DNA of 40,934 nucleotides from Candidatus Aminicenantota bacterium (GTDB lineage: Bacteria; Acidobacteriota; Aminicenantia; UBA2199): assembly GCA_011772425.1 (NCBI GenBank), contig WVZO01000761.1, positions 1 to 40,934 on the forward strand. Reading direction: 5' to 3'. Each line of letters begins with the position of its first letter. Within the stretch, counting starts at the first letter, position 1. Under the pieces are notes generated by a model, which was not told the origin of the DNA, ran no database searches, and saw only the letters and a list, made by a program, of their open reading frames with translations. The position numbers and the translations under genes are program-made. Shown piece after piece: positions 2,318 to 40,934 of this stretch.

Positions 2318-3208
2318 ATGAAAATGAAATTATCCGAGAAAGAAGCAAATTTGTTTTATAAATTAAACCCCGCTTTGCTATTTTATGTAAATACCAGGTT
2401 GAAAATAGTTAAAAATATCGCGGAACCCCAGGATTTCGTGGATTGCCCTTTAGAAGAAAAGGTCAGAGTCAGGAATGCGTTGTATGAAAACATCGGATTA
2501 ATCGACTCATTTGTGCAGGATAATCCCTCGGGTTTTTCCAGCGAAGAGCTGGAAATCGTTAAAAGCTGGAAACACTTTGTTTCCGGCACCTTCTACCTGG
2601 TTCGTTTTCTTACCAATTACGCGGTATTTCTTGATACCGGTGATCCGCCTTGTGTCTATGGGGTATTGGGGATTATCAATTCAATTGATGAAAAGTGTGG
2701 GGATTCTGTTCCTATAATGGTGAATACGTTCCTTCTGCCCTTTAAGGGGAAAATCATATACGATGGATTCTTAGGCTTTCACAATATCTATTTTGGCAGC
2801 GGGATCCGTAAAAACCTTAACCGTTCTTACCAGGAATCTAAGGCCCGGTTCGGCATTATAACATCCCTGCCCTATTCGCCGAAAGAAGCAGCGCAAAATG
2901 ATGAGGAAATGTTGAAGTTTTACTTGAAAAATGAACGCAACCGCGAATACTATTGGAAAGATATCCGGGAGCTGGCACTTAAGAGCCCGGAGAATCTGAC
3001 CCTGTACCACCAGGAAATGGGAAAAGTCCACGCCCGGAGATTCAAAAATGAGCTTCGGGAAATGGGTTTCAAAAATACCTGGTTTGCAGTACTTCAGGGC
3101 CTCATCATTGCCAGTGGCTCCAGCAAAGACCACCTGCAGAAAAACCTGGACGCTGTCCTGCCTCCTGGAAAAGCCCCTCACGTCTACACCTTCCAACTCA
3201 AAAAATAG
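2318..3208 (+). CDS. Conserved hypothetical protein (about 296 aa)
   Basis: ORF with RBS aaaggag. Internal LPFKGKIIYDGFL...GIRKNLNRSYQESKARFGIITSLP looks like a conserved family without a function I can assign. Confidence 0.65.
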   Translation: MKMKLSEKEANLFYKLNPALLFYVNTRLKIVKNIAEPQDFVDCPLEEKVRVRNALYENIGLIDSFVQDNPSGFSSEELEIVKSWKHFVSGTFYLVRFLTNYAVFLDTGDPPCVYGVLGIINSIDEKCGDSVPIMVNTFLLPFKGKIIYDGFLGFHNIYFGSGIRKNLNRSYQESKARFGIITSLPYSPKEAAQNDEEMLKFYLKNERNREYYWKDIRELALKSPENLTLYHQEMGKVHARRFKNELREMGFKNTWFAVLQGLIIASGSSKDHLQKNLDAVLPPGKAPHVYTFQLKK

Positions 3209-3241
3209 AATTTTATTGATTTTTTCGCCTGTCCCCTTTCT

Positions 3242-4570
3242 CTATGTTTTCTTCAACAGTTCTTCTTCAATTTTTTTGATCCATGCGGTATCTTCATTCC
3301 GCTTTTCCCTGGTTTCCCGGATTAAACGAAGATTGCGGGCTGTGGTTTCCGGTTCCCAGGGCTCACGAATCGAGGCAAGCGAGTTCTCTAAATATTCTAT
3401 GGCTTGCGCCTGATCGTTGGCTAAGACCGACAATTCCAGGAGCGTGGCATAATCCCAGTAATCCGGTTCTCCTCTGGCAATTTTCTGTTTTACCGCATAC
3501 ATGACCACCGGCAACAATTCTTTTTGCCTGGGATCATCCGGGTTAAGGAGTTCCAGGAGGGTGACCGCATTCACCCCAGGAAAAAAATCCCGCCAATCCG
3601 CTTCAAACCCTTTAATATAGGTTTCAACAGCTTTTTTCAGGAATCCTTTGGCGATGAATTCATCGCCTTCGTTTTTCGCCTCTTCCCAGCGGTCCTTGTA
3701 GACTCGGCCAAGAAGGCCGTAGGTCTCGCTGCTGGGACCACTTTTTTTTATGATCTCCAGCAAGGTGTCTTCAGCTTTATCTCTCTGTTTGTTTCGATTC
3801 AAAGCAAAGGCGAGCTGCTCTTGAATCATTACCCGGTCAGATAGCGGCCTGGGCATCTCGCTCACCAATTCGATCATTTCATCCCAGGCTTTTGTGGCCC
3901 TGTACGATAGAAAAAGATCGATGAGAATGCCGGATTCTACATCGCTGATTTCACCAAGTTCTTTTTCCACTTCTTTGACAGCTTCTTTATTTTTTTTGCG
4001 TGCCTCTTTTAACTTTTCTTTGATTTGCTGCGAATATAAGACTTGTTCACGGAATATGTCGGTCGCTTCATGGGCCAGGGACTGGGGTTTTAACTCCTTA
4101 AACAATTGAAATAAAGGACTGTCCACGTAAGTTTCAGCCTTTATTTGTTCCAGTTTCATTTTTAGGTTGGCAAGGCCTGTGTCTTTATCCGTTAATCTCC
4201 CATTATTATCCAGTTTGTAAGGTAGTGCGCGCAGCATGTTTAGATCAAAGGGGAGTTGCATTCTTTCATTAAAAATAAGAACGGTTTTAAAAGGGCGTAC
4301 CGCGTGACGAACCCCAAGCTCATAAAAAACATTAGCATTAGCGGTTGTCAGATCGGCAACGGCGTACTCACAAAGAATCAATCGCTCAAACATGGCTTTG
4401 TGAATCATCCCTCCTGCTTTTTCTTCATCCGCCCGGATGGGTTCAAGACCGGCATGTTCAATGGCCGGATGAATCATTTCATCGTAAATGGCATCAAAAT
4501 TGATTTTGATGCCTGAAGGGTCTGTCTTAATTCCAAAAGGCATTAATACAAAACACAACGGTTTAGCCAT
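3242..4570 (-). CDS. NDT/TIR-like nucleotide-binding domain + TPR (DUF4071-like) protein
   Basis: N-terminus FVLMPFG...IYDEMIHPAIEHAGLEPIRADE...AMFERLILCEYAVADLTTANANVFYELGVRHA matches the nucleoside-deoxyribosyltransferase/TIR-like pattern; C-terminal half is helical/TPR-like. Overlaps the stop of the upstream gene by 8 bp. Confidence 0.7.
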   Translation of the reverse strand: MAKPLCFVLMPFGIKTDPSGIKINFDAIYDEMIHPAIEHAGLEPIRADEEKAGGMIHKAMFERLILCEYAVADLTTANANVFYELGVRHAVRPFKTVLIFNERMQLPFDLNMLRALPYKLDNNGRLTDKDTGLANLKMKLEQIKAETYVDSPLFQLFKELKPQSLAHEATDIFREQVLYSQQIKEKLKEARKKNKEAVKEVEKELGEISDVESGILIDLFLSYRATKAWDEMIELVSEMPRPLSDRVMIQEQLAFALNRNKQRDKAEDTLLEIIKKSGPSSETYGLLGRVYKDRWEEAKNEGDEFIAKGFLKKAVETYIKGFEADWRDFFPGVNAVTLLELLNPDDPRQKELLPVVMYAVKQKIARGEPDYWDYATLLELSVLANDQAQAIEYLENSLASIREPWEPETTARNLRLIRETREKRNEDTAWIKKIEEELLKKT

Positions 4571-5870: not shown

Positions 5871-5986
5871 CCATGTATTATCGGGTATAATTGGTGCTGG
5901 TTCTATCGAGAAGCCCGGCGCTTTTTACTTTTTGCCGGTTTTGTCCAAAATGAGTGCTTATTTGCTTATAAAAAGCAAAAATTCTT

Positions 5987-8179
5987 TTACGTGCTTTCTG
6001 CTTTTTTAGGGGCCAGGAATTTGTTGTACAGCAGGAGGCAAAGGATGGTTACCACGCCGATGCTGGCAAACACAAGCCACAGGGTCCGCGGCTGGTTCAG
6101 GTTTTTCACAAAGTGCACGTAAAGTTTGGCCCCAACGATACCACCCACTGAACTTCCAAATACTCCGTAAAGGAAAATATAACCCATGTACATGGCCTTT
6201 TTATCCGACGGCGCTGTCAAACCCACGTAGCTGATGAATTTGGGGTGGGCGGTCATTTCACCGACGGAGAATATGATGATGCCCGCCATAAATACCCAGA
6301 TATGGGTGGATACGGCCAGCATGGCTATACCGATGGTGCCGAGGATAATACCGGTTATCATGGTGGGCATGGCTTTTTTATTCTTGACAATGGCTGAAAT
6401 AGCCAATTGCAATATAATAATGGTACCGGCATTGATTACGGTTACATGTTCCACATCAAAAAACCAGTTGCTTTTAATGCCGAAGAATCCCAGGAAACTA
6501 TTGATGGCATTGTTCAACGCAGTGGCATCCACATAAGCCTGGACATACCATAACACGGAATCGAACATCTGGAAATAGAGTACCCAGAACCCGGAGTAAA
6601 GAACGATCATTAACAGGAATTTTGCATGGTCCATAAATTTATGGGTGTCGGTTTTATCGATGATAAACAAGGACATGATGGAAAAGTAGATAACGGAACA
6701 AAGGATTCGCGCCAGTGTATCAAGACCCGGTATTAACCAGATAACCAATATAACTAACGGTACAACAAATTTGGGAATTTGCATGCCGGAAGATTTAATT
6801 CCAGGATTTACCGGCTGTTTTTGCTTTTTATTATTGATGGAAACCGCAGCAATGAACAGCCCGATCAATATCAACGATATCACGAATAATAGGAAAAACG
6901 AACGGCCTCCCAACTGGTTATAAACCTTGTTGCAGTTTGCCTGGGTAATGCCTCGCAGGGCCGGGATTTTATGTATTTCTTTCAGCAGGTCTTGTTTTTG
7001 AGTTTTATATTTCTTCGGTTCTTTGAGAAAAACCTTATATTGGGCCTCAGTGATTTTTTTAACGCTGAAGGGAGTGGTTTCAGCGGGATTGGCTTCAAAG
7101 ATCAGTTCGATTTTATTATCCGACTGTTTGATGTAATTTCTAATATCATTCTCAGTGATGGATTGCAGCGCTGGATTTTCGCTGAGATCTTTCAGCAAAT
7201 CCCCGATGAAATCGTCGATATATACAGGTTTATAGATGGTCAGATCGATAATGTCAGGTGTTTCTTCCCGTGGTTCTAATAGGTAAGGTTTTTCCTCTTG
7301 CATGTTGCGTTCCACGGTAAATATGAGTGTTTTTTCTCCTTTTTCAATACCAACGGCTGCAAATTTTTCGGAGGCGGGCTGCACACTAAGATAACTCATG
7401 ACAGAATATCCCAGTAAGAGAACCAGTACAAGAGTGATAATAATTTTCCAGGCGCCGGATTTTTTCATGAGGTTGTACAACAGTACGATTGGGGAGTAGA
7501 TGATTTCAAACGCATTGGCAAGGGTCTGGATTAAATTGGCTTTTTCTCTCTCTTTTGCCTTTTCTTCCACTTCTTGCTGTTTGGTAGGCTCTTTAAAGAA
7601 AAAAGCGGTGGGAATAAGCATGGCAGCCGTACAGATGCCAGAGGCAATAATCACATAGGTGGGGTTGATGCTTTTTAATATAGGCACCAGGAACAGGGGA
7701 AATAAGAACGCGCCCATGTTAATGGACCAGTAATAAATACCGAAGGCCTGGGTGCTGTTGGATTCGTCGGTAATCTTGGCAATGGTCCCGGAGATCATGG
7801 GTTTGAATGTCCCGGCACCGAATCCCATAATGACCAGGGCAACAAAAACTGCTGTATAGGAGGTCATTTGACTGGTGAGGAAATAACCGCCGCCTAACAG
7901 CGTAAACGCCACCATCAGTACTTTGCGGTACCCGAAACGATCGGCAATCGCACCCGCCAGAATGGGTAAAAAGTAAAGCAAAGGCTGGATGACACCTTTA
8001 ATGATACCGACGTTCTCTTCGGGAAACCCCAACGAGTATACGAAATACTGGGATAGAAAACTCATCATCCCATAATACGCGCCGCGTTCAAAAAACTCGA
8101 ACATCACCACCAGCCAGAACTGGCCGGAGAATTTTGTAAAGAATCCTTTTTTGGCTTGTTTTGGTTGTTCATTTGTCAT
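5987..8179 (-). CDS. POT/PTR2-family (MFS) peptide transporter with about 170-190 aa extramembrane insertion
   Basis: N-terminal FWLVVMFEFFERGAYYGMMSFLSQYFV, GAIADRFGYRKVL, GFGAGTFKPMISGTIAKI typical of POT transporters; hydrophilic stretch between TM halves. Confidence 0.8.
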   Translation of the reverse strand: MTNEQPKQAKKGFFTKFSGQFWLVVMFEFFERGAYYGMMSFLSQYFVYSLGFPEENVGIIKGVIQPLLYFLPILAGAIADRFGYRKVLMVAFTLLGGGYFLTSQMTSYTAVFVALVIMGFGAGTFKPMISGTIAKITDESNSTQAFGIYYWSINMGAFLFPLFLVPILKSINPTYVIIASGICTAAMLIPTAFFFKEPTKQQEVEEKAKEREKANLIQTLANAFEIIYSPIVLLYNLMKKSGAWKIIITLVLVLLLGYSVMSYLSVQPASEKFAAVGIEKGEKTLIFTVERNMQEEKPYLLEPREETPDIIDLTIYKPVYIDDFIGDLLKDLSENPALQSITENDIRNYIKQSDNKIELIFEANPAETTPFSVKKITEAQYKVFLKEPKKYKTQKQDLLKEIHKIPALRGITQANCNKVYNQLGGRSFFLLFVISLILIGLFIAAVSINNKKQKQPVNPGIKSSGMQIPKFVVPLVILVIWLIPGLDTLARILCSVIYFSIMSLFIIDKTDTHKFMDHAKFLLMIVLYSGFWVLYFQMFDSVLWYVQAYVDATALNNAINSFLGFFGIKSNWFFDVEHVTVINAGTIIILQLAISAIVKNKKAMPTMITGIILGTIGIAMLAVSTHIWVFMAGIIIFSVGEMTAHPKFISYVGLTAPSDKKAMYMGYIFLYGVFGSSVGGIVGAKLYVHFVKNLNQPRTLWLVFASIGVVTILCLLLYNKFLAPKKAEST

Positions 8180-8431
8180 GATATTACCTCATTTGCTCTT
8201 TTGTATGTTAATATTTAATTTTTTTTACTTGAATCTGGAAATGATAATACCAGGGTTAATGGTATGAAGTAGAATAATATCAATTAATCGAGAAAAAAGC
8301 AAGGAAAAAAATAGCCCTTCAGCATTTCTAATTTTAGCCACGAAGTTACACGAAGGTACACGAACATAAGAGAAGAAGATAAGAAAAAAAATGGTACCAA
8401 TGGGAAATACCATTATGAAGCATGGTACGAT

Positions 8432-8602
8432 GACTGACCGTGTATGAAAAGTTTTGCGGGGTCCAGGGCACTTACAGTGCGGTATTAAGGAATGCCCATG
8501 GAGACGATATGTCGTTTGAAGCGTCGTACGCCGTCCTGGCACTGCAAGTGCTCCCCCACGCAGTGGGGTTTTTCAAAAGAGCCCCTGGCCGCCGGAGGCA
8601 CA
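8432..8602 (+). repeat. Dispersed hairpin element, copy 2 (with internal extra sequence)
   Basis: gactgaccgtgtatgaaaagttttgcggggtccagggca...ttttcaaaagagcccctggccgccggaggcac. Confidence 0.75.
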
Positions 8603-8603
8603 G

Positions 8604-10088
8604 CTACTGAATTATTTTGATCAATTGATTGGGGGACAATTGCTGGTCCAGTTCCATGTTGTTTATGAGTGCGATCTTATTCCAAACCTGGTTGTGGATT
8701 CGTAATGCGGACAGGAAATTTCTCAGGGTTTGACGGCTGCTCACCCGCTTGACAAACACCCGCTGCGGCCTGCGGTTTAAATGCCTGCGACTGGTTAACG
8801 GGTTGAACGAGTTAATCGTACCATTAATGGTATACTCATACGCAGAAAAATCCGAAAGAGAAGCCGCTGAAAAAAACGTATAAACAATATCTCCTTTTCG
8901 GATGCAGGAGATACCTACCTTTACCTCTTCCTTTTGCTGCTCCTGGCTGCTGTCTTCATCACTGATTAATGACTGCATAAGGGTATGGTATGCATTCATT
9001 CCATTGACATACCGGTATCCTTCCTGGATGATCTGGGGATTGGAAAGCTTTTTTTTCAGCTTATTGGCGTAACTGTCCAGGGATTCTGTGGTGCCTTCAG
9101 CCATAAAGATAACAACGGCTTTTCCATCGCCGGAGGCCAGTGTAACCTGGCGCGGGGTATTGCTGTATTTCCAGCCGCGGGGGATATTGAAATAGAATCT
9201 CATGTCCGGGTGATAAAAGGTATTTCCTTCTACATAGCCCTGCCTGGGATTGTCCCCGTATACCAGACCGTCAAGCCTTGTTAAATAGCCATCTCTTTCT
9301 ACTTTTAATCGAGGTAAATCCCCGGTTCGGCTGTACTCCTCAGCTTGCAGTAGCTCTTTTACTTTTTCAATCCGCCTGGGGGTTAAGGGGTGGGTAGAGA
9401 GAAAATTGGGTAGGCGTACACCGCCTTTGGTTTCTGTCAGACGCTGCAAGGAGTTAAAAAAAGTGACCATTTCGCCAGCAGAATACCCGATTTTTAACGA
9501 GTATTCCACTCCCAGGGCATCGGCCTGGTATTCGTTGCTGCGACTGTATTTCAGGAATAAAAGCTGGGTGGCCAGCATGGAAATGGGAGCAATTTTTCTA
9601 AAGTCTTTACTCAACTCACTGGCGATAACAATACCCAGGGTAAAGAGGATAGAGCGTGTCATCTGCCGGGCAGAGTGCCGGGCATTCACATGCCCCAGTT
9701 CATGACCCAATACAGTCGCCAGTTCCGCTTCACTGTTCATTAATGCCAAAAGACCGCGAGTGACGTAAATATAACCACCAGGTGCGGCAAAGGCATTCTC
9801 TACCGGCGTGTCCAATATAGCAAAATGATATTCCAGGTGAGGCCGATGGGTATTGGGAGCCATCTCCTGGCCGATTTGCTCTATATAAGCAGTGAATTGG
9901 GGGTCCTCATAAAAACCGTATTCCCTGCGCAAACCCTGGTCAATTTCCTTGCCCATTCCAATCTCCATACTCTCAGAGATCAGCATAATCTCTTTCTTAC
10001 CGGTCACCGGGTTAACCGCACATTGTACCTGGATAATGGCAATCAAAACAACCAAAATAAAAGGCGTAATTCTAAAAATTCGTTTCAT
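8604..10088 (-). CDS. M48-family metalloprotease, predicted lipoprotein
   Basis: HELGHVNARH zinc motif, downstream NEYQADALG, lipobox-like IIQVQCAVNP, C-terminal segment compatible with a LysM/peptidoglycan-binding region. Confidence 0.87.
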   Translation of the reverse strand: MKRIFRITPFILVVLIAIIQVQCAVNPVTGKKEIMLISESMEIGMGKEIDQGLRREYGFYEDPQFTAYIEQIGQEMAPNTHRPHLEYHFAILDTPVENAFAAPGGYIYVTRGLLALMNSEAELATVLGHELGHVNARHSARQMTRSILFTLGIVIASELSKDFRKIAPISMLATQLLFLKYSRSNEYQADALGVEYSLKIGYSAGEMVTFFNSLQRLTETKGGVRLPNFLSTHPLTPRRIEKVKELLQAEEYSRTGDLPRLKVERDGYLTRLDGLVYGDNPRQGYVEGNTFYHPDMRFYFNIPRGWKYSNTPRQVTLASGDGKAVVIFMAEGTTESLDSYANKLKKKLSNPQIIQEGYRYVNGMNAYHTLMQSLISDEDSSQEQQKEEVKVGISCIRKGDIVYTFFSAASLSDFSAYEYTINGTINSFNPLTSRRHLNRRPQRVFVKRVSSRQTLRNFLSALRIHNQVWNKIALINNMELDQQLSPNQLIKIIQ

Positions 10089-33417: not shown

Positions 33418-36216
33418 ATGGCACTTATTTATAATGTAACCATTGAACCGGCGGGGAAGGAAAGAGAAAACCTATTCCACATCACCTGGCAAAAAAAAGG
33501 CACAAACCAAAAAAATGGTTTTAAGCAAAAAACCGGGGACATTACACAAGAAGAAGTTGAACGGTTGTGGCAGCAGCCAAAGTATCAGACGGTTGTAGGC
33601 AAGAAACTTTTCAATTTCCTGGACGGAGATAAACGCTATCTGCAGCAGGCACTGGACCAGGCTAACAGCAAAGGCGAACCTTTGCAACTGGATTTGTGTA
33701 CCTGTGACCGGACAGCGGATTGGCCTTTTGAGCTGCTGGTGGGGGACGGGGGTTTTTTGCTTTCGGAGCGAATGCACCTGGTCCGCTGCGTTTCAGAGTA
33801 TGCCGCGGAAAAGGAAACGACTCCCCAGGATCGACCCTTAACACTTCTGTTCATGGCCTGTTCCGCCCTGGACGTGGAGCCGGAACTGGATTTTGAAAAA
33901 GAAGAAGAAGCCATATTCCAGGTCACGGAAAAACTGGCCGTGGACATGGAGGTAGAGGATTCTGGTTCCCTCGAAGGACTGCGGCAACAATTGGAGCAGC
34001 AGCCCTACGACGTGGTACACCTCTCCGGTCATGCTGATATCGATAAACAGGGGGTGCCGTATTTTATCATGGAAAATGAAACCGGTTTCCGCCGGGATGT
34101 TTCTCCTTATGAACTGTGGGAAGATGCGCTTATAGATAATCCGCCGCGGTTATTGTTTTTATCCGGCTGCCGCACCGGTGAACCGGCCGAGGAGTTTGCT
34201 TCGGTTTCTTTTGCCCGCAGGTTGGTAGAAAAATATAATGTGCCCGCGGTCCTGGGGTGGGGGCGTTCGGTGAGCGATCAACAGGCCGCGCATGCGGAGA
34301 AAATGATTTATCGTGAATTGAGCCGGGGCAGGACCATTTTGGAAGCGGTGCAGCGCGCCCGGCATGAATTGATCAAAGAATTTCCCCTGACCACTGACCC
34401 GGCCTGGCCGCTGCTGCGGTTGTTCAGCAGCGGTATGACATTGGCCGCCATTGTAAAAGCGCCGAAAAAAGGCCGGCAGCCGCGGCTGACACCCAGGCAA
34501 ATGGTTCATACGTTTTTAAAGGACAGCCAGGTGCAGGTATTGGCAGAAGGGTTTGTGGGCCGGCGGCGCCAGTTGCAGCGCAGCATAGGGGCATTGAAAC
34601 AGGATGTCCACAAAGTGGGTCTGCTGCTCCTGGGCACTGGCGGGCTGGGAAAAAGCTGCCTGGCCGGTAAAATCAGCGAACGGTTCAGATCGCACACCTT
34701 GATCGTGGTGCACGGCAAATTCAATGCCTACACTCTGGAACCGGCATTAAAAGCGGCTTTTATCCAGGCTGAAGATGAAAAAGGCAAGCAAATCCTGGCC
34801 GCGGAAAAAGAAATGTCCGAAAAATTAGCCGAACTCTGCGCCGCCAGTTTTAAAGAGAAAAACTATTTGATTCTCCTGGATGATTTCGAGCAGAACATCG
34901 AGGGGGCGGAAAAAGGCCAACCCGGCTATTTATTGCCTGAAGCTGCGGAGTTGTTGAACGTCCTGCTCCAGTACCTTCATTTCAGTGGTAAAATGACGCA
35001 AATCATGATAACCAGCCGTTACTCGTTTTCGTTGACAGACCAGGACCGTGACCTGGTAAAGGAGCGGCTGGAATGGATTACGCTCACCGGTTTCCCGGAA
35101 TCGGAGCAGAAGAAAAAAGCAAGGGAGTTGGAAAATATTTTTTATTATGCGGACCAATCGCTGGTGCCGCAATTGGTGGCAGCCGGACACGGCAATCCCC
35201 GGTTAATGGAGTGGCTGGACGTATTGGTAGGTGAGATGGAAGCCGCGGAGGTGCCGCAATTGCTGGAAGCCATAAGCGGGAAGCAGGAAGAGTTTATCCG
35301 CGAACATGTGATCCGGGAGCTGCTGCGGCGCGGCGGGGATGAATTGGCACTTTTTCTGCGCTGGTTCAGTATTTATCGCCGGCCCGTATTAAAAGAAGGC
35401 GTGCGGCAGGTGGGGGAGAATGCCGGGCTGGAAACCTGGGAGGAGTTATTACAGGAAGGGACTGGTTTAAGCCTGGTGGAGTATGACCAGGCCCGGCAGA
35501 ACTACCGGGTGACGCCGCTGCTGCGGGAGGAGTTATCCGCCGGGCTTAAAGACCCACAGGCCTGCCACCGGGCAGCCTTTGCCTATTATGAAAAAATATG
35601 CAAAGACATGGAGACTATCGAGCCTGTGCTGGTGGAAGAGTGGATATATCATGCATTGGGCTGTGGGGAAGAAGAGGTGGCGTCTGAGCAGGGAGGCAGG
35701 TTGGTTGGTCATTTACTTGATCGTCTGGCTTTCCGGGAATCGCGGCGGGTGGGGCTGTGGGTCCTGAAAGAGAAGAACAAGGAATTGTCCACGGCCAATG
35801 ATGCTTTTTTATTGAATGAGACTGCATTAACTATAAAAACATTGGGCGAACCCCGCAAAGCCATCGATTATTATGAGCAGGCGCTAAAGATTGATCGCAA
35901 CGTGTATGGCCAGGAGCATCCTGCTGTGGCCATTCGCTTGAATAACCTGGGAGAAGCCTGGAGAGTGTTAGGTGAGCCGAAAAAGGCCATCGAGTATTAT
36001 GAACAGGCGCTGACCATATTTAAAAAAGTGTATGGAGAGAATCATCCGAATGTTGCATCTGCATTGAATAACCTGGGGGTTATTTATCTCCAACAGGGTC
36101 AAAAGGAAAAGGCAAAAGCGTATCTTGAACAGGCGTATAAGATCAAATTAAAATTTTATGGTCCCGATCATCCCAGTTCAAAGACAACCGCCAAATGGCT
36201 GGAAGATTGTAAATGA
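33418..36216 (+). CDS. CHAT protease domain - STAND-like NTPase - TPR protein
   Basis: CHAT His VVHLSGHAD and Cys LLFLSGCRTGEPAEEF; Walker A LLLLGTGGLGKSCL; Walker B YLILLDDFEQN; C-terminal kinesin-light-chain-like TPRs AIDYYEQALKIDRNVYGQEHPAVAIRLNNLGEAW. Confidence 0.9.
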   Translation: MALIYNVTIEPAGKERENLFHITWQKKGTNQKNGFKQKTGDITQEEVERLWQQPKYQTVVGKKLFNFLDGDKRYLQQALDQANSKGEPLQLDLCTCDRTADWPFELLVGDGGFLLSERMHLVRCVSEYAAEKETTPQDRPLTLLFMACSALDVEPELDFEKEEEAIFQVTEKLAVDMEVEDSGSLEGLRQQLEQQPYDVVHLSGHADIDKQGVPYFIMENETGFRRDVSPYELWEDALIDNPPRLLFLSGCRTGEPAEEFASVSFARRLVEKYNVPAVLGWGRSVSDQQAAHAEKMIYRELSRGRTILEAVQRARHELIKEFPLTTDPAWPLLRLFSSGMTLAAIVKAPKKGRQPRLTPRQMVHTFLKDSQVQVLAEGFVGRRRQLQRSIGALKQDVHKVGLLLLGTGGLGKSCLAGKISERFRSHTLIVVHGKFNAYTLEPALKAAFIQAEDEKGKQILAAEKEMSEKLAELCAASFKEKNYLILLDDFEQNIEGAEKGQPGYLLPEAAELLNVLLQYLHFSGKMTQIMITSRYSFSLTDQDRDLVKERLEWITLTGFPESEQKKKARELENIFYYADQSLVPQLVAAGHGNPRLMEWLDVLVGEMEAAEVPQLLEAISGKQEEFIREHVIRELLRRGGDELALFLRWFSIYRRPVLKEGVRQVGENAGLETWEELLQEGTGLSLVEYDQARQNYRVTPLLREELSAGLKDPQACHRAAFAYYEKICKDMETIEPVLVEEWIYHALGCGEEEVASEQGGRLVGHLLDRLAFRESRRVGLWVLKEKNKELSTANDAFLLNETALTIKTLGEPRKAIDYYEQALKIDRNVYGQEHPAVAIRLNNLGEAWRVLGEPKKAIEYYEQALTIFKKVYGENHPNVASALNNLGVIYLQQGQKEKAKAYLEQAYKIKLKFYGPDHPSSKTTAKWLEDCK

Positions 36217-36515: not shown

Positions 36516-36770
36516 ATGCCGCAAACACAAACAACAACCATGACCATTCAATTGCCTGTGGAGGCCAATAATCGATTGGAAGCCCTGGCAAAATCGATCC
36601 ACACTTCACGGGACGATCTTGCAGTCCGGGCCATCGAAGAATACCTGGATTTGCAGGAATATCAGATCAAAGCCATACAAGAAGCCGTTGAAGAAGCAGA
36701 TTCACCAAATGCTGAATTTTTGGATCATGATGAGGTGGTTGAGCGCATGAAGAAGTTGGGGCAGGGATGA
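36516..36770 (+). CDS. Ribbon-helix-helix (ParD/CopG-like) antitoxin
   Basis: TTMTIQLPVEANNRLEALAKSIHTSRDDLAVRAIEEYLDLQEYQIKAIQEAVEEAD; RBS aaggagg; overlaps toxin start. Confidence 0.87.
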   Translation: MPQTQTTTMTIQLPVEANNRLEALAKSIHTSRDDLAVRAIEEYLDLQEYQIKAIQEAVEEADSPNAEFLDHDEVVERMKKLGQG

Positions 36771-37051
36771 GAGTACGTTGGCTGCTTAAGGCGGTAAATG
36801 ATTTAGAAGACCTTCAAGAATACATAGCCTTCGACAATCCCTATGCGGCATCCAGGCAAGTTGAAATAATATTAGAGGCTGCTGCACGATTGGAGGAAAA
36901 TCCTTACATCGGAAGAGATGGCAGAGTAAAAGGAACGCGTGAACTTGTTATCCCAAAAACTCCTTTCATAGCAGCATATCGGATAAAAGATGACGTGGTG
37001 GAAATTCTTAGAGTTCTTCATGGTGCCAGGAAATGGCCTAAGAGATTTTGA
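36767..37051 (+). CDS. RelE/ParE-family toxin
   Basis: VRWLLKAVNDLEDLQEYIAFDNPYAASRQVEIILEAAARLEENPYIGRDGRVKGTRELVIPKTPFIAAYRIKDDVVEILRVLHGARKWP. Confidence 0.9.
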   Translation: MRVRWLLKAVNDLEDLQEYIAFDNPYAASRQVEIILEAAARLEENPYIGRDGRVKGTRELVIPKTPFIAAYRIKDDVVEILRVLHGARKWPKRF

Positions 37052-37310: not shown

Positions 37311-37688
37311 TCCAGGACCGCCTGGAAATCATCCAGGACCATCTAGAAATGACCCAGGACCGTCTAGAAATCATCCAGGACCATCTAGAAATGACTCGGG
37401 ACCACCTAGAAATCATCTGGGACCACCTAGAAATGGCCCAGGACCACCTAGAAATCATTCGGGACCATCTAGAAATGAAAGGTAACCGCTCCCCAATCAT
37501 TTCTAGACGGTCGACCATCATTTCTGCATCGTCGACTATCATTTCTACATGGTCGATCTCCATTTCTGCGTGGTCGACTATCATTTCTGCGTGGTCGATT
37601 ACCATTTCTATATGGTCGACTACCATTTCTGCACGGTCGACTATCATTTCTGTGTGGTCGGCTATCATTTCTGCATGGTCGGCTACCA
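37311..37688. repeat. 21-bp-period array C: two opposed half-arrays (8 + 9 units) around a 21-bp centre
   Basis: Left units 37311-37478 (tccaggaccatctagaaatga type), centre 37479-37499 (aaggtaaccgctccccaatca), right units 37500-37688 (tttctgcatggtcgactatca type). The right unit's reverse complement GACCATGCAGAAATGATAGTC parallels the left unit GACCATCTAGAAATGATCCAG. Confidence 0.92.
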
Positions 37689-37705
37689 TTTCTGCTTATT
37701 TTTTT

Positions 37706-37778: not shown

Positions 37779-39290
37779 ATGAGAATATTTAAACAAGTCA
37801 TTGTTTTTTTAGTGGTTTCTGTTGTATTTGTGATGCCTTGTATCGCCCAAGACCTGGAGCAGGCCATTCGCAGCGGCGATGCAGCAAAAGTAAAGACACT
37901 GTTGGACAAAAATCCCGGGTTGGTGAAAAACAAAGATGCTGACGGCAGGACCCCGCTGCACCATGCACTATATACCGGAAACAAGGAAATAATCGAACTT
38001 TTGGTTGCCCGTGGAGCAGATGTGAATGCCACAAGTAAACGGGAAGTAACACCGCTGCTGATTGCCGCCTATTTCGGCCGCACACACGCCGTAAAATTAT
38101 TGATTTCAAAGGGTGCCCAGGTGGACAAAATCGGCATCAACCACATGACTCCCTTGTTATTTGCCGTTTCCCGCGGCCACAAGGAAATCGTTGAATTGTT
38201 GATTGCTAAAGGCGCTTCACTAAAAGTTACAGACAAGATAGGCAGCAATGCACTGCTCCTGGCAGTTTTGGGCGGCAATAAAGCCGTTGTCGAAACGCTG
38301 ATTGCCGGGGGCATAGACCTGGATGCGGCTAACTCGCGGGGCAGTACGCCCCTGGTTGTGGCTGCAAGAGAAGGCCGCCAGGATATCGTCGACCTCCTGC
38401 TGGCAAAAGGGGCAGCCAATACCCTAAAAAAAATCCCTGCCCTCAACGGCGAATACCTGGGACAAATCAAACCGGGTTTAACCCCTCTCATTTTCGCACA
38501 AGGATTTGTTTCCACCGAATACCGGCAGTTGAATGCTGTTTTTACACCGGACATGAAAGAATTTTACTTTGCCATACAAAAACCCAATGCTCCCTTTTCC
38601 ATAATGGTTACCAAACAGGTGAACAACCAATGGACAAAACCCGCTGTCGCTTCCTTTTGCGGTAAATACAGCGATGTGGATCTTTCCATTTCCCCGGATG
38701 GCAAGACGCTTTTTTTCTGTTCCAGGAGACCGCTGAAAAAAGGGGAAAAACCCAAACAGGATCATGATTTTTGGATGACAAAAAGAACCGCGGGCGAATG
38801 GACTGAACCCCAGCACCTGGGACCGGAGATTAACTCGGATAGAGAGGATTTTTATCCGGTGGTTACCAAAAAAGGTACGTTATATTTTTCATCACAGCGG
38901 GAAGGGGAAGGAACCAATAATATTTACCGGTCACAATTGAAGAACGGCAAATACAGCAAAGGGGAAAAACTGGGGGATACGGTAAACAGCCGCTTCAGGG
39001 ACTTTGATCCCTTTATCGCACCGGATGAACGTTTTATTATATTCGCATCAGAGCGGCCAGGGGGCTTCGGTGCCTCCGATCTCTATATCAGTTTCCATAA
39101 AAAAGACGGGACCTGGACAAAGGCAAAGAATATGGGAGAGAAAATTAATTCTTCTTCATCAGATTATACGCCCATGCTGTCACCGGACGGGAAGTATCTA
39201 TTCTTTACCAGTGGCAGAAGTGGTGTAAATGATATTTACTGGATCGATGCCAAAATAATTGAACATGTTTTAGAAAAAGGTAACCGTTAA
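37779..39290 (+). CDS. Ankyrin-repeat + PD40/WD40-like beta-propeller secreted protein
   Basis: Signal peptide VIVFLVVSVVFVMPCIAQ; ankyrin DADGRTPLHHALYTGNKEIIELLVARGADVNA; PD40 motifs DVDLSISPDGKTLFFCSRR, SPDGKYLFFTSGRSGVNDIY. Confidence 0.88.
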   Translation: MRIFKQVIVFLVVSVVFVMPCIAQDLEQAIRSGDAAKVKTLLDKNPGLVKNKDADGRTPLHHALYTGNKEIIELLVARGADVNATSKREVTPLLIAAYFGRTHAVKLLISKGAQVDKIGINHMTPLLFAVSRGHKEIVELLIAKGASLKVTDKIGSNALLLAVLGGNKAVVETLIAGGIDLDAANSRGSTPLVVAAREGRQDIVDLLLAKGAANTLKKIPALNGEYLGQIKPGLTPLIFAQGFVSTEYRQLNAVFTPDMKEFYFAIQKPNAPFSIMVTKQVNNQWTKPAVASFCGKYSDVDLSISPDGKTLFFCSRRPLKKGEKPKQDHDFWMTKRTAGEWTEPQHLGPEINSDREDFYPVVTKKGTLYFSSQREGEGTNNIYRSQLKNGKYSKGEKLGDTVNSRFRDFDPFIAPDERFIIFASERPGGFGASDLYISFHKKDGTWTKAKNMGEKINSSSSDYTPMLSPDGKYLFFTSGRSGVNDIYWIDAKIIEHVLEKGNR

Positions 39291-39432: not shown

Positions 39433-39603
39433 ACACGTTAACGCCAAATTACCTCAGCGCGGCATGCTAAAATTACAGCAATTTACCATGATAACGAGTT
39501 CTCGCCCGGAGATACATGAGATGAAACCACTACCTGTCACCTGCAACCTATTTTCACCCCAGGTATACAAACAAAAAAAATCAAATAAAAAGGAGAAACC
39601 ATC

Positions 39604-39831
39604 ATGAAACTTAAAAAGAAGTTGGTCATTCGAGCGTTAACCGACCCCAAATTCAGGAAACTCCTGGAAGAGAATCCTGAAGCAGCTTTGACTAAAGAAG
39701 AGCTGGAAGAAATCAAGGGCGGTGTCGATGGAATCATGGAGCAGGCAGACCTGATCGACATTATTTCTAAAACCATTGCTCCCATGATTTTCTGTATTGA
39801 ACCCCCTGGCGGCGGTCCCATTTATGCCTGA
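39604..39831 (+). CDS. RiPP precursor-like peptide with NHLP/Nif11-like leader motif
   Basis: MKLKKKLVIRALTDPKFRKLLEENPEAALTKEELEEIKGGVDGIMEQADLIDIISKTIAPMIFCIEPPGGGPIYA; RBS aaaggag; directly upstream of a radical SAM/SPASM gene. Confidence 0.82.
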   Translation: MKLKKKLVIRALTDPKFRKLLEENPEAALTKEELEEIKGGVDGIMEQADLIDIISKTIAPMIFCIEPPGGGPIYA

Positions 39832-39845
39832 GATGAGGTCTCAAA

Positions 39846-40934
39846 ATGAAGGTCCTCACCGGTGAAGTTCTTGCAGCGAATACGTGGACGTGTAATCTCA
39901 GGTGCTCGTACTGTTTCGTTCGAAAAACCGACAAGATGAAGGAGGACGAATTCATGTCCCCTGAGACGGCCGTGAGAGTCATCGATGCACTGGATGAGGG
40001 CCTCAGCGAGATCAACAGGATTCGTGTTCATCTTTACGGGGGTGAGCCATTCATCAACCTTCCTGCGATTGAGGCAATGGTTAAGCGGGCCGGTGATAAA
40101 AAACCGGGCCGTATCGGTTTTGTTGTGACTACCAACGGGACAATTTTATCTGACGCAGTTATTGATTTGCTGGAAGCGGGTAAATTTGATATTGTTCTCA
40201 GTATCGATGGTCCGGCAGAGGTCCACGATGCGTGTCGCAAAAGGGTGGATGGCTCGCCCACCCACCGTGATGTCATGCGTTTTTTGGAAACTGTACGTTC
40301 ACGGACCTCCTGTTACGTCACCGGGGCTGCGGTGATTCGGTCGGGGTGGAGGCTGCTTTATGCCAGCGAATACCTGCGCACCCTGCCTATCGATAACGTT
40401 AAGGCCCAGGCGGTGCGTTTAGCTGCCGGTACTCCTTATGCACTTACCGAGGAGGATATGAAGCTCTATCAGCAAGACTTGGAAGCCATTGGCCGCCAGG
40501 TCATCAAGGAACTGGAAGCAGAAAAAGTGCCCATGGATAGGCGTTTTGCCGGCCGAGTCATGAAGTTGCTTATCAAAGGGGAAGGGCTGATGCGGTACTG
40601 CGATGCCGGTAAAAGCAACCTGGGCATTACTCCCTCCGGCGTTGTAAAGGCGTGCCTCCTGGTAGATGAAGAGGATGCAGTGCTGGGACACGTTAACGAT
40701 GACGTTGAAGTCTGGAAGCAAGCCGGTCTGAAATGGCAGGAACGGCCGCTGCGCAAAAAGTGTACATCCTGTTCATATCTCCAACTATGCGGCGGCGGCT
40801 GCCCGGCTGTGGTTCCTGTCTGCGGCGACGAGGAGTGCAAGATTGTTCATAAAGAATGTGACGTGGCAAACGTGATATATGAACATTTCAGTGATAAGCA
40901 GGAAAACTTGCTGGGGCTGGTGGGTATTGTTTAG
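39846..40934 (+). CDS. Radical SAM/SPASM-domain peptide-modifying enzyme
   Basis: CNLRCSYCF (CX3CX2C), LYGGEP, TTNGTIL; C-terminal SPASM-like cysteines YCDAGKSNLGITPSGVVKACLL...KKCTSCSYLQLCGGGCPAV...CGDEECKIVHKEC; stop coincides with the window end. Confidence 0.92.
   Translation: MKVLTGEVLAANTWTCNLRCSYCFVRKTDKMKEDEFMSPETAVRVIDALDEGLSEINRIRVHLYGGEPFINLPAIEAMVKRAGDKKPGRIGFVVTTNGTILSDAVIDLLEAGKFDIVLSIDGPAEVHDACRKRVDGSPTHRDVMRFLETVRSRTSCYVTGAAVIRSGWRLLYASEYLRTLPIDNVKAQAVRLAAGTPYALTEEDMKLYQQDLEAIGRQVIKELEAEKVPMDRRFAGRVMKLLIKGEGLMRYCDAGKSNLGITPSGVVKACLLVDEEDAVLGHVNDDVEVWKQAGLKWQERPLRKKCTSCSYLQLCGGGCPAVVPVCGDEECKIVHKECDVANVIYEHFSDKQENLLGLVGIV

Follow-up and report, generated by a model that had tools for sequence, protein, structure and literature searches.

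In freyrasin biosynthesis, PapB joins Cys to the Cβ of Asp or the Cγ of Glu and accepts Cys-Xn-Asp with n = 0-6 in vitro (PMC9413430); an earlier PapB study, as cited in PMC8172795, described a strict CX3D pattern. QhpD, the maturase of quinohemoprotein amine dehydrogenase, links Cys to the methylene carbons of Asp and Glu (PMC8172795). Cobalamin-dependent radical SAM enzymes of RiPP biosynthesis include ApyD, a Tyr Cβ-methylase (PMC11117315), and PoyC, a Val Cβ-methylase (PMC5682303). Here we describe a rare bacterial gene set in which a small peptide is encoded together with three radical SAM enzymes, one of them B12-binding, and whose product is probably a cross-linked, further modified peptide of a kind without prior characterisation. 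It lies at the end of a 40,934-nucleotide stretch of DNA from a Candidatus Aminicenantota bacterium, referred to as the window.

The last two genes of the window are a 75-aa precursor gene, A (39604..39831, plus strand), and the gene of a 362-aa radical SAM/SPASM enzyme, B (39846..40934, plus strand), separated by 14 bases. Both are preceded by motifs that can be read directly as ribosome-binding-like, AAGGAG at 39590..39595 (plus strand) for A and GAGG at 39835-39838 for B. An earlier interpretation of the window's letters, the sequence-only reading, had delimited the two frames exactly so, and homologous pairs occur at two other loci. The window ends at the stop codon of B because two Ns, an NN scaffold join, follow there; the contig (C537) has 44032 bases in total and continues 3.1 kb past that point. 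The continuation encodes a second radical SAM/SPASM enzyme, C (41031-42296, 421 aa), an enzyme with B12-binding and radical SAM domains, D (42331-43644, 437 aa), and, after D, C′, a C paralogue of which the contig, ending at 44032, contains the first part only. It had been supposed that transporter or protease genes might follow B; inspection of the sequence from the window end to 44032 found none, and these radical SAM enzymes instead. The gene order A-B-C-D is repeated on a second contig of the genome, C352 (L004), where a complete set shows identities of 60% for B, 55% for C and 55% for D. A third locus, in an Ignavibacteriae MAG (PNBM01000292.1, L005), comprises a precursor and a 48% identical B only; neither C nor D is encoded in the stretch that begins 6.6 kb before that precursor and runs to the end of the contig, 3.2 kb past B, and C was not found in a search of the whole MAG. 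About 0.8 kb before the Ignavibacteriae precursor there is a separate radical SAM gene (343 aa), and the interval between this gene and the A-B pair holds a 121-aa ORF (5977-6342) whose product contains several Cys residues and a hydrophobic N-terminal segment. The original assignment as a radical SAM RiPP locus has good support: two genomes carry the precursor-enzyme pair at three loci in total, the leader is of the NHLP clan, and the GG site fits the double-glycine consensus.

An Rfam search returned no match, and promoter and terminator counts were close to chance level. PADLOC matches were of a generic radical SAM (viperin-like) kind, and no defence role is claimed. Immediately 5′ of the cluster, the window encodes an ankyrin-repeat protein fused to PD40 beta-propeller repeats (37779-39290). 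Further upstream are two neighbouring arrays of a 21-base repeat (about 8 and 9.5 copies; 37311-37695) where several open frames, on both strands, overlap, a toxin-antitoxin-like pair with a 4-base overlap (36516-37051), in which a small DUF6290 protein is paired with a ParE toxin (PF05016, 5e-20), and a 932-aa protein with a CHAT domain, an NB-ARC/AAA-like region and TPR repeats (33418-36216).

Regarding the precursor, its sequence is MKLKKKLVIRALTDPKFRKLLEENPEAALTKEELEEIKGG / VDGIMEQADLIDIISKTIAPMIFCIEPPGGGPIYA. We regard the small ORF as a real gene because its homologues lie directly 5′ of homologous enzymes at the two other loci and because the differences within the closest precursor pair lean towards third codon positions (29/21/42 at positions 1/2/3). 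The precursor pN/pS of 0.41-0.52 is comparable to that of the enzyme (0.37-0.44), and the C352 precursor gene has an equivalent ribosome-binding-like AGGAGG. The leader (residues 1-40; 39604..39723, plus strand) ends in LTKEELEEIKGG and has residues kept across all three precursors. It matches the Os1348-family NHLP-clan model NF038399 at 1.5e-6, with 28.2 and 26.4 bits under a cut-off of 40, and the NHLP model TIGR03793 at 1.1e-3, with 18.7 bits under a cut-off of 50.9, and no Nif11 leader model matches A at E ≤ 1. Of the NHLP/Nif11-like character first ascribed to the leader, an Os1348/NHLP-like part thus stands, below cut-offs, and the Nif11 part falls away. The GG site fits the double-glycine consensus as read from the sequence (L-12, E-8, L-7, I-4, GG), and the putative core follows it (residues 41-75; 39724..39828, plus strand).

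Alignment of the three precursors revealed that one Cys of the core is invariant and that the residue at +2 from it is always acidic, namely C-I-E, C-V-D and C-N-D. In A, this C-x-[D/E] element is Cys64-Ile65-Glu66 (39793..39801, plus strand), followed by the tail PPGGGPIYA (39802..39828, plus strand). The C352 core is LCVDPPGSCGIC, and that precursor ends in LLCVDPPGSCGIC; the Ignavibacteriae precursor has no GG site and ends AFLCNDT with the stop codon immediately after. The PPG tail is common to the two A-B-C-D sets and missing from the A-B set, so that the PPGGGPIY tail, which the sequence-only reading had offered as the signature to search for, is not general, and the shared element is C-x-[D/E]. 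The chance that all three precursors have an acid at the same fixed offset is about 0.004 before the choice of offset or shared descent is considered, and about 0.03 when seven downstream offsets are allowed for sequences that, through shared descent, are not independent. With no more than three precursors known, C-x-[D/E] is a weak rule.

B contains a CX3CX2C radical SAM cluster motif (Cys16, 20 and 23; 39891..39914, plus strand) and a seven-Cys SPASM pattern (Cys252, 270, 306, 309, 315, 319 and 338; 40599..40859, plus strand), which place it in the radical SAM/SPASM superfamily. These residues are invariant in all three B sequences, as are four further Cys, 130, 156, 326 and 331, the last two within the SPASM region. 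PF04055 is matched at 65 bits (1.3e-17), and PF13186 at 19.0 bits, slightly under its cut-off of 21.5. The PapB model ranks first (143.8 bits, 7.2e-42), followed by QhpD (132.5 bits, 2e-38) and the SCIFF maturase (120.6 bits, 8e-35), with the anaerobic sulfatase maturase TIGR03942 behind (90.5 bits, 1e-25). All of these scores are below cut-off; for the PapB model, 143.8 and 149.4 bits compare with 340. The closest solved structure is CteB (2e-40), with the sulfatase maturase at 4e-23. In a maximum-likelihood tree of 39 proteins, B forms a fully supported clade on the same side as CteB, QhpD and most PapB-like enzymes, and is distant from all characterised enzymes, on a stem of 1.9 changes per column. 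A grouping with anaerobic sulfatase maturases had been named beforehand as an outcome that would speak against a RiPP enzyme. The tree splits B from them at 99/94, but a constrained grouping costs 14.6 log units and gives an AU p of 0.074, formally not rejected. This value and the common SPASM superfamily are what might be said for B as a sulfatase-maturase-like enzyme beside an unrelated small gene. We consider that extremely improbable in view of the tree, the conservation of the A-B pair at three loci, and the 90.5 bits of B against a cut-off of 349, when the genuine sulfatase maturase of the same genome reaches 440 bits. The radical SAM domain of B begins near residue 13, with about 110 residues ahead of the domain in sister maturases of the genus. 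Pfam searches of A-D recognised no RRE, by a method that may overlook such domains, and an AlphaFold model of B built on a three-sequence alignment had a mean pLDDT of 45 and was unusable.

PapB-like maturases in this and a sister genome adjoin precursors with C-X2-3-D repeats (CIIDFG, CIVIDVAC, CYLVDWAC). Together with the precedents of PapB and QhpD, these neighbours make a Cys-to-Asp/Glu thioether the best-supported candidate reaction for B. As a candidate ranthipeptide acceptor motif (Cys-Xn-Asp/Glu), C-X1-[D/E] is present in all three precursors; the natural spacing is X3, X0-6 is accepted in vitro, and the Glu/Asp exchange at +2 is of a kind that PapB tolerates. To our knowledge, the C-X1-D/E spacing is below every known natural ranthipeptide spacing. 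The thioether or C-C crosslink foreseen by the sequence-only reading is suggested by homology only, the PapB, QhpD and SCIFF maturase models leading. B might instead form another bond at or near the same Cys, such as an alpha-carbon thioether of the sactipeptide type, a thioether elsewhere (as CteB at Thr Cγ) or a crosslink of the C-C or C-O type within the tail. All of these bonds are made by SPASM enzymes of one superfamily, and among peptide-maturase models B also scores on makers of cyclophanes (CcpM 5e-32, YhhB 2e-28, DynA 3e-26). However, models of non-alpha-carbon thioether formation top the list for B, Cys and its +2 acid are the core element common to all three precursors, and the Ignavibacteriae tail, CNDT, is too short for a tail crosslink, so that we hold a different bond to be rather unlikely.

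C gives its best matches to the PapB (6.5e-46) and QhpD (1.1e-45) models, and its closest solved structure is CteB (3e-41). D belongs to the cobalamin-dependent radical SAM enzymes, its B12-binding (PF02310; 50.7 and 53.9 bits) and radical SAM (PF04055; 80.4 and 88.8 bits) domains all scoring above cut-off. Since the PPG tail is found only where C and D are, we propose that both enzymes act on it, a link drawn from two clusters of one genome compared with one other. A PPPGFDPEYITAPP stretch at the start of C resembles PPGGGPIYA; substrate mimicry by it was considered and dropped, since proline-rich three-letter matches are expected by chance. The best models for D are BchE and ApyD, and ApyD is the best RiPP model, at up to 5e-36. 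Scores against the ApyD-type C-methylase model NF050148 are 101.5 and 124.3 bits, below the cut-off of 750. Methylation is the likeliest reaction for D, and other cobalamin radical chemistry is possible. With the B link formed as proposed, D could carry out ring or thioether formation or an oxidation in place of methylation: the D of the window scores better against BchE (8e-35) than against ApyD (4e-29), and cobalamin radical SAM enzymes also perform ring formation, ring contraction and thioether formation (PMC13331322). Yet PoyC (PMC5682303) and ApyD (PMC11117315), the two RiPP enzymes of this class named above, act as C-methylases, and we give such a non-methylating D a real though clearly less than even chance.

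In the pathway that we propose, with a probability of roughly 0.45, the locus is a radical-SAM RiPP cluster, A-B-C-D(-C′), in which B would install a thioether and C and D would change the tail. A would be recognised via its Os1348/NHLP-like leader, and B, as a PapB/QhpD/CteB-type SPASM enzyme, would abstract a hydrogen adjacent to the side-chain carboxylate and link the conserved Cys sulfur to the Asp beta carbon or Glu gamma carbon at +2, with a loss of 2 Da, leaving a tight ranthipeptide-like ring within C-x-[D/E]. C and D would next modify the tail rich in proline and glycine, PPGGGPIYA or PPGSCGIC, with carbon methylation as the likeliest role of D, and a cut after GG would free a peptide of about 35 residues. 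Gene content and gene order, the C352 duplicate, the conserved residues and the enzyme families are observations; we infer the chemical steps, the order in which they occur, leader cleavage and export. Elsewhere, the genome encodes one C39-type peptidase domain above cut-off, within an open frame of 730 aa, and cleavage at GG in trans is therefore possible. Instead of being secreted, A could serve as the scaffold on which a small product or cofactor is made and then excised, like PqqA and MftA, its C-terminal residues being reworked and cut off. The short Cys/Tyr-containing C-terminus of A recalls MftA, which we take as a lead only. A multi-enzyme radical set serving one very short tail, the lack of a transporter or protease at both full clusters and beside the Ignavibacteriae pair, and the Ignavibacteriae precursor without a GG site would fit such a role. 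Against it, A matches no mycofactocin (MftA) or PQQ precursor model at E ≤ 1, B reaches just 60.6 bits (1.4e-16) with the MftC model, whose cut-off is 265, and the GG consensus suits export by the lone C39-type peptidase protein elsewhere in the genome; we regard the scaffold role as doubtful.

Returning to the A-B-C-D pathway, we regard the cluster as a rare new variant of the radical-SAM RiPP type that combines three radical enzymes with a minimal C-x-[D/E] core and whose chemistry is predicted. A bolder and, in our estimate, unlikely version is that the single C-x-[D/E]-P-P-G tail is rebuilt step by step by the two SPASM enzymes and the cobalamin radical SAM enzyme, which would define a new RiPP class with a minimal Cys-x-Asp/Glu thioether ring beside a Pro-Pro-Gly segment that is C-methylated or altered in some other way, a product unlike any described one. 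If the main pathway is right, C-X1-D/E would form the shortest natural Cys-to-Asp/Glu radical thioether ring that we know of, and three radical SAM enzymes of two types would act on one short tail, a rare case. The occurrence of a natural A-B pair beside two natural A-B-C-D sets makes the contribution of each enzyme separable by experiment.

The A-B family is rare, with a patchy distribution. Searches for further B genes gave only general SPASM maturases in 60 relatives (best 1e-31) and no additional member in 396 genomes of the phylum at 1e-45 or in 294 genomes of the class of the Ignavibacteriae locus at 1e-40; viral contigs gave distant SPASM proteins only, and plasmids at best QhpD (26%). 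No further D was found at 1e-60 in 35 genomes, and no further A in 142 genomes of the class, except a leader-like stretch (0.003) inside a long frame. This genome has 18 PapB-model matches at E ≤ 1e-35, none above cut-off, and by such matches the genus is unusually rich in putative, uncharacterised SPASM/radical SAM maturases. A probable ranthipeptide cluster of the same genome (L059; G000:C665) consists of a PapB-like SPASM maturase (6343-7857, minus strand) and two Cys-rich precursors (8005-8247 and 8398-8619, minus strand) with the repeated C-X2-3-D elements CIIDFG, CKIDFGC, CGIDFGC and CAAMDFAC. At another locus (L060; G000:C633), a PapB-like maturase (2534-4042, minus strand) stands beside a short ORF (4164-4346, minus strand) with CIVIDVAC and CIALDLAC (CX3D), and two more radical SAM-like genes are on that contig. 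Tandem SPASM-type enzymes with short ORFs ending in EGHCNSWPLIDYDYLPVRTCLI and EGHCNSWPVVDQYLDYSFPELCRP occur at L054 (G001:C203, 5550-11889, minus strand) and L055 (G006:C733, 2-3029), and seem to belong to a distinct RiPP-like family that is conserved within the genus and the taxonomic family.

Several known systems bear comparison with the cluster. The aminopyruvatide cluster contains ApyD, the best RiPP model for D; in contrast, no MNIO, P450 or RRE partner protein is seen in the present stretch, and D is far under the ApyD cut-off. As in the proteusins (polytheonamide; PoyB/PoyC/PoyD), an NHLP-clan leader occurs together with several radical SAM enzymes, one of them of the B12 type, whereas here the leader is under the NHLP cut-off, the SPASM enzymes are of the thioether-maturase kind, and the core tail is short and carries a Cys. 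Among solved structures, CteB of the SCIFF system is the nearest to both B (2e-40) and C (3e-41), but a SCIFF peptide contains six Cys and the core of the window a single one. QhpD makes Cys-to-Asp/Glu methylene thioethers, and its model is second best for the B of the window and about equal to PapB for C, but the substrate of QhpD is a whole enzyme subunit, and dehydrogenase subunits are absent here. PapA/PapB (freyrasin) and the ranthipeptides differ in having six CX3D repeats where a single C-X1-[D/E] is found here, and B, at 144 bits against the 340-bit PapB cut-off, lacks an N-terminal region of RRE size and is accompanied by the extra enzymes C and D. In them as in the present cluster, a SPASM radical enzyme adjoins its precursor and an Asp or Glu lies downstream of the Cys, and PapB is the best curated model for B.
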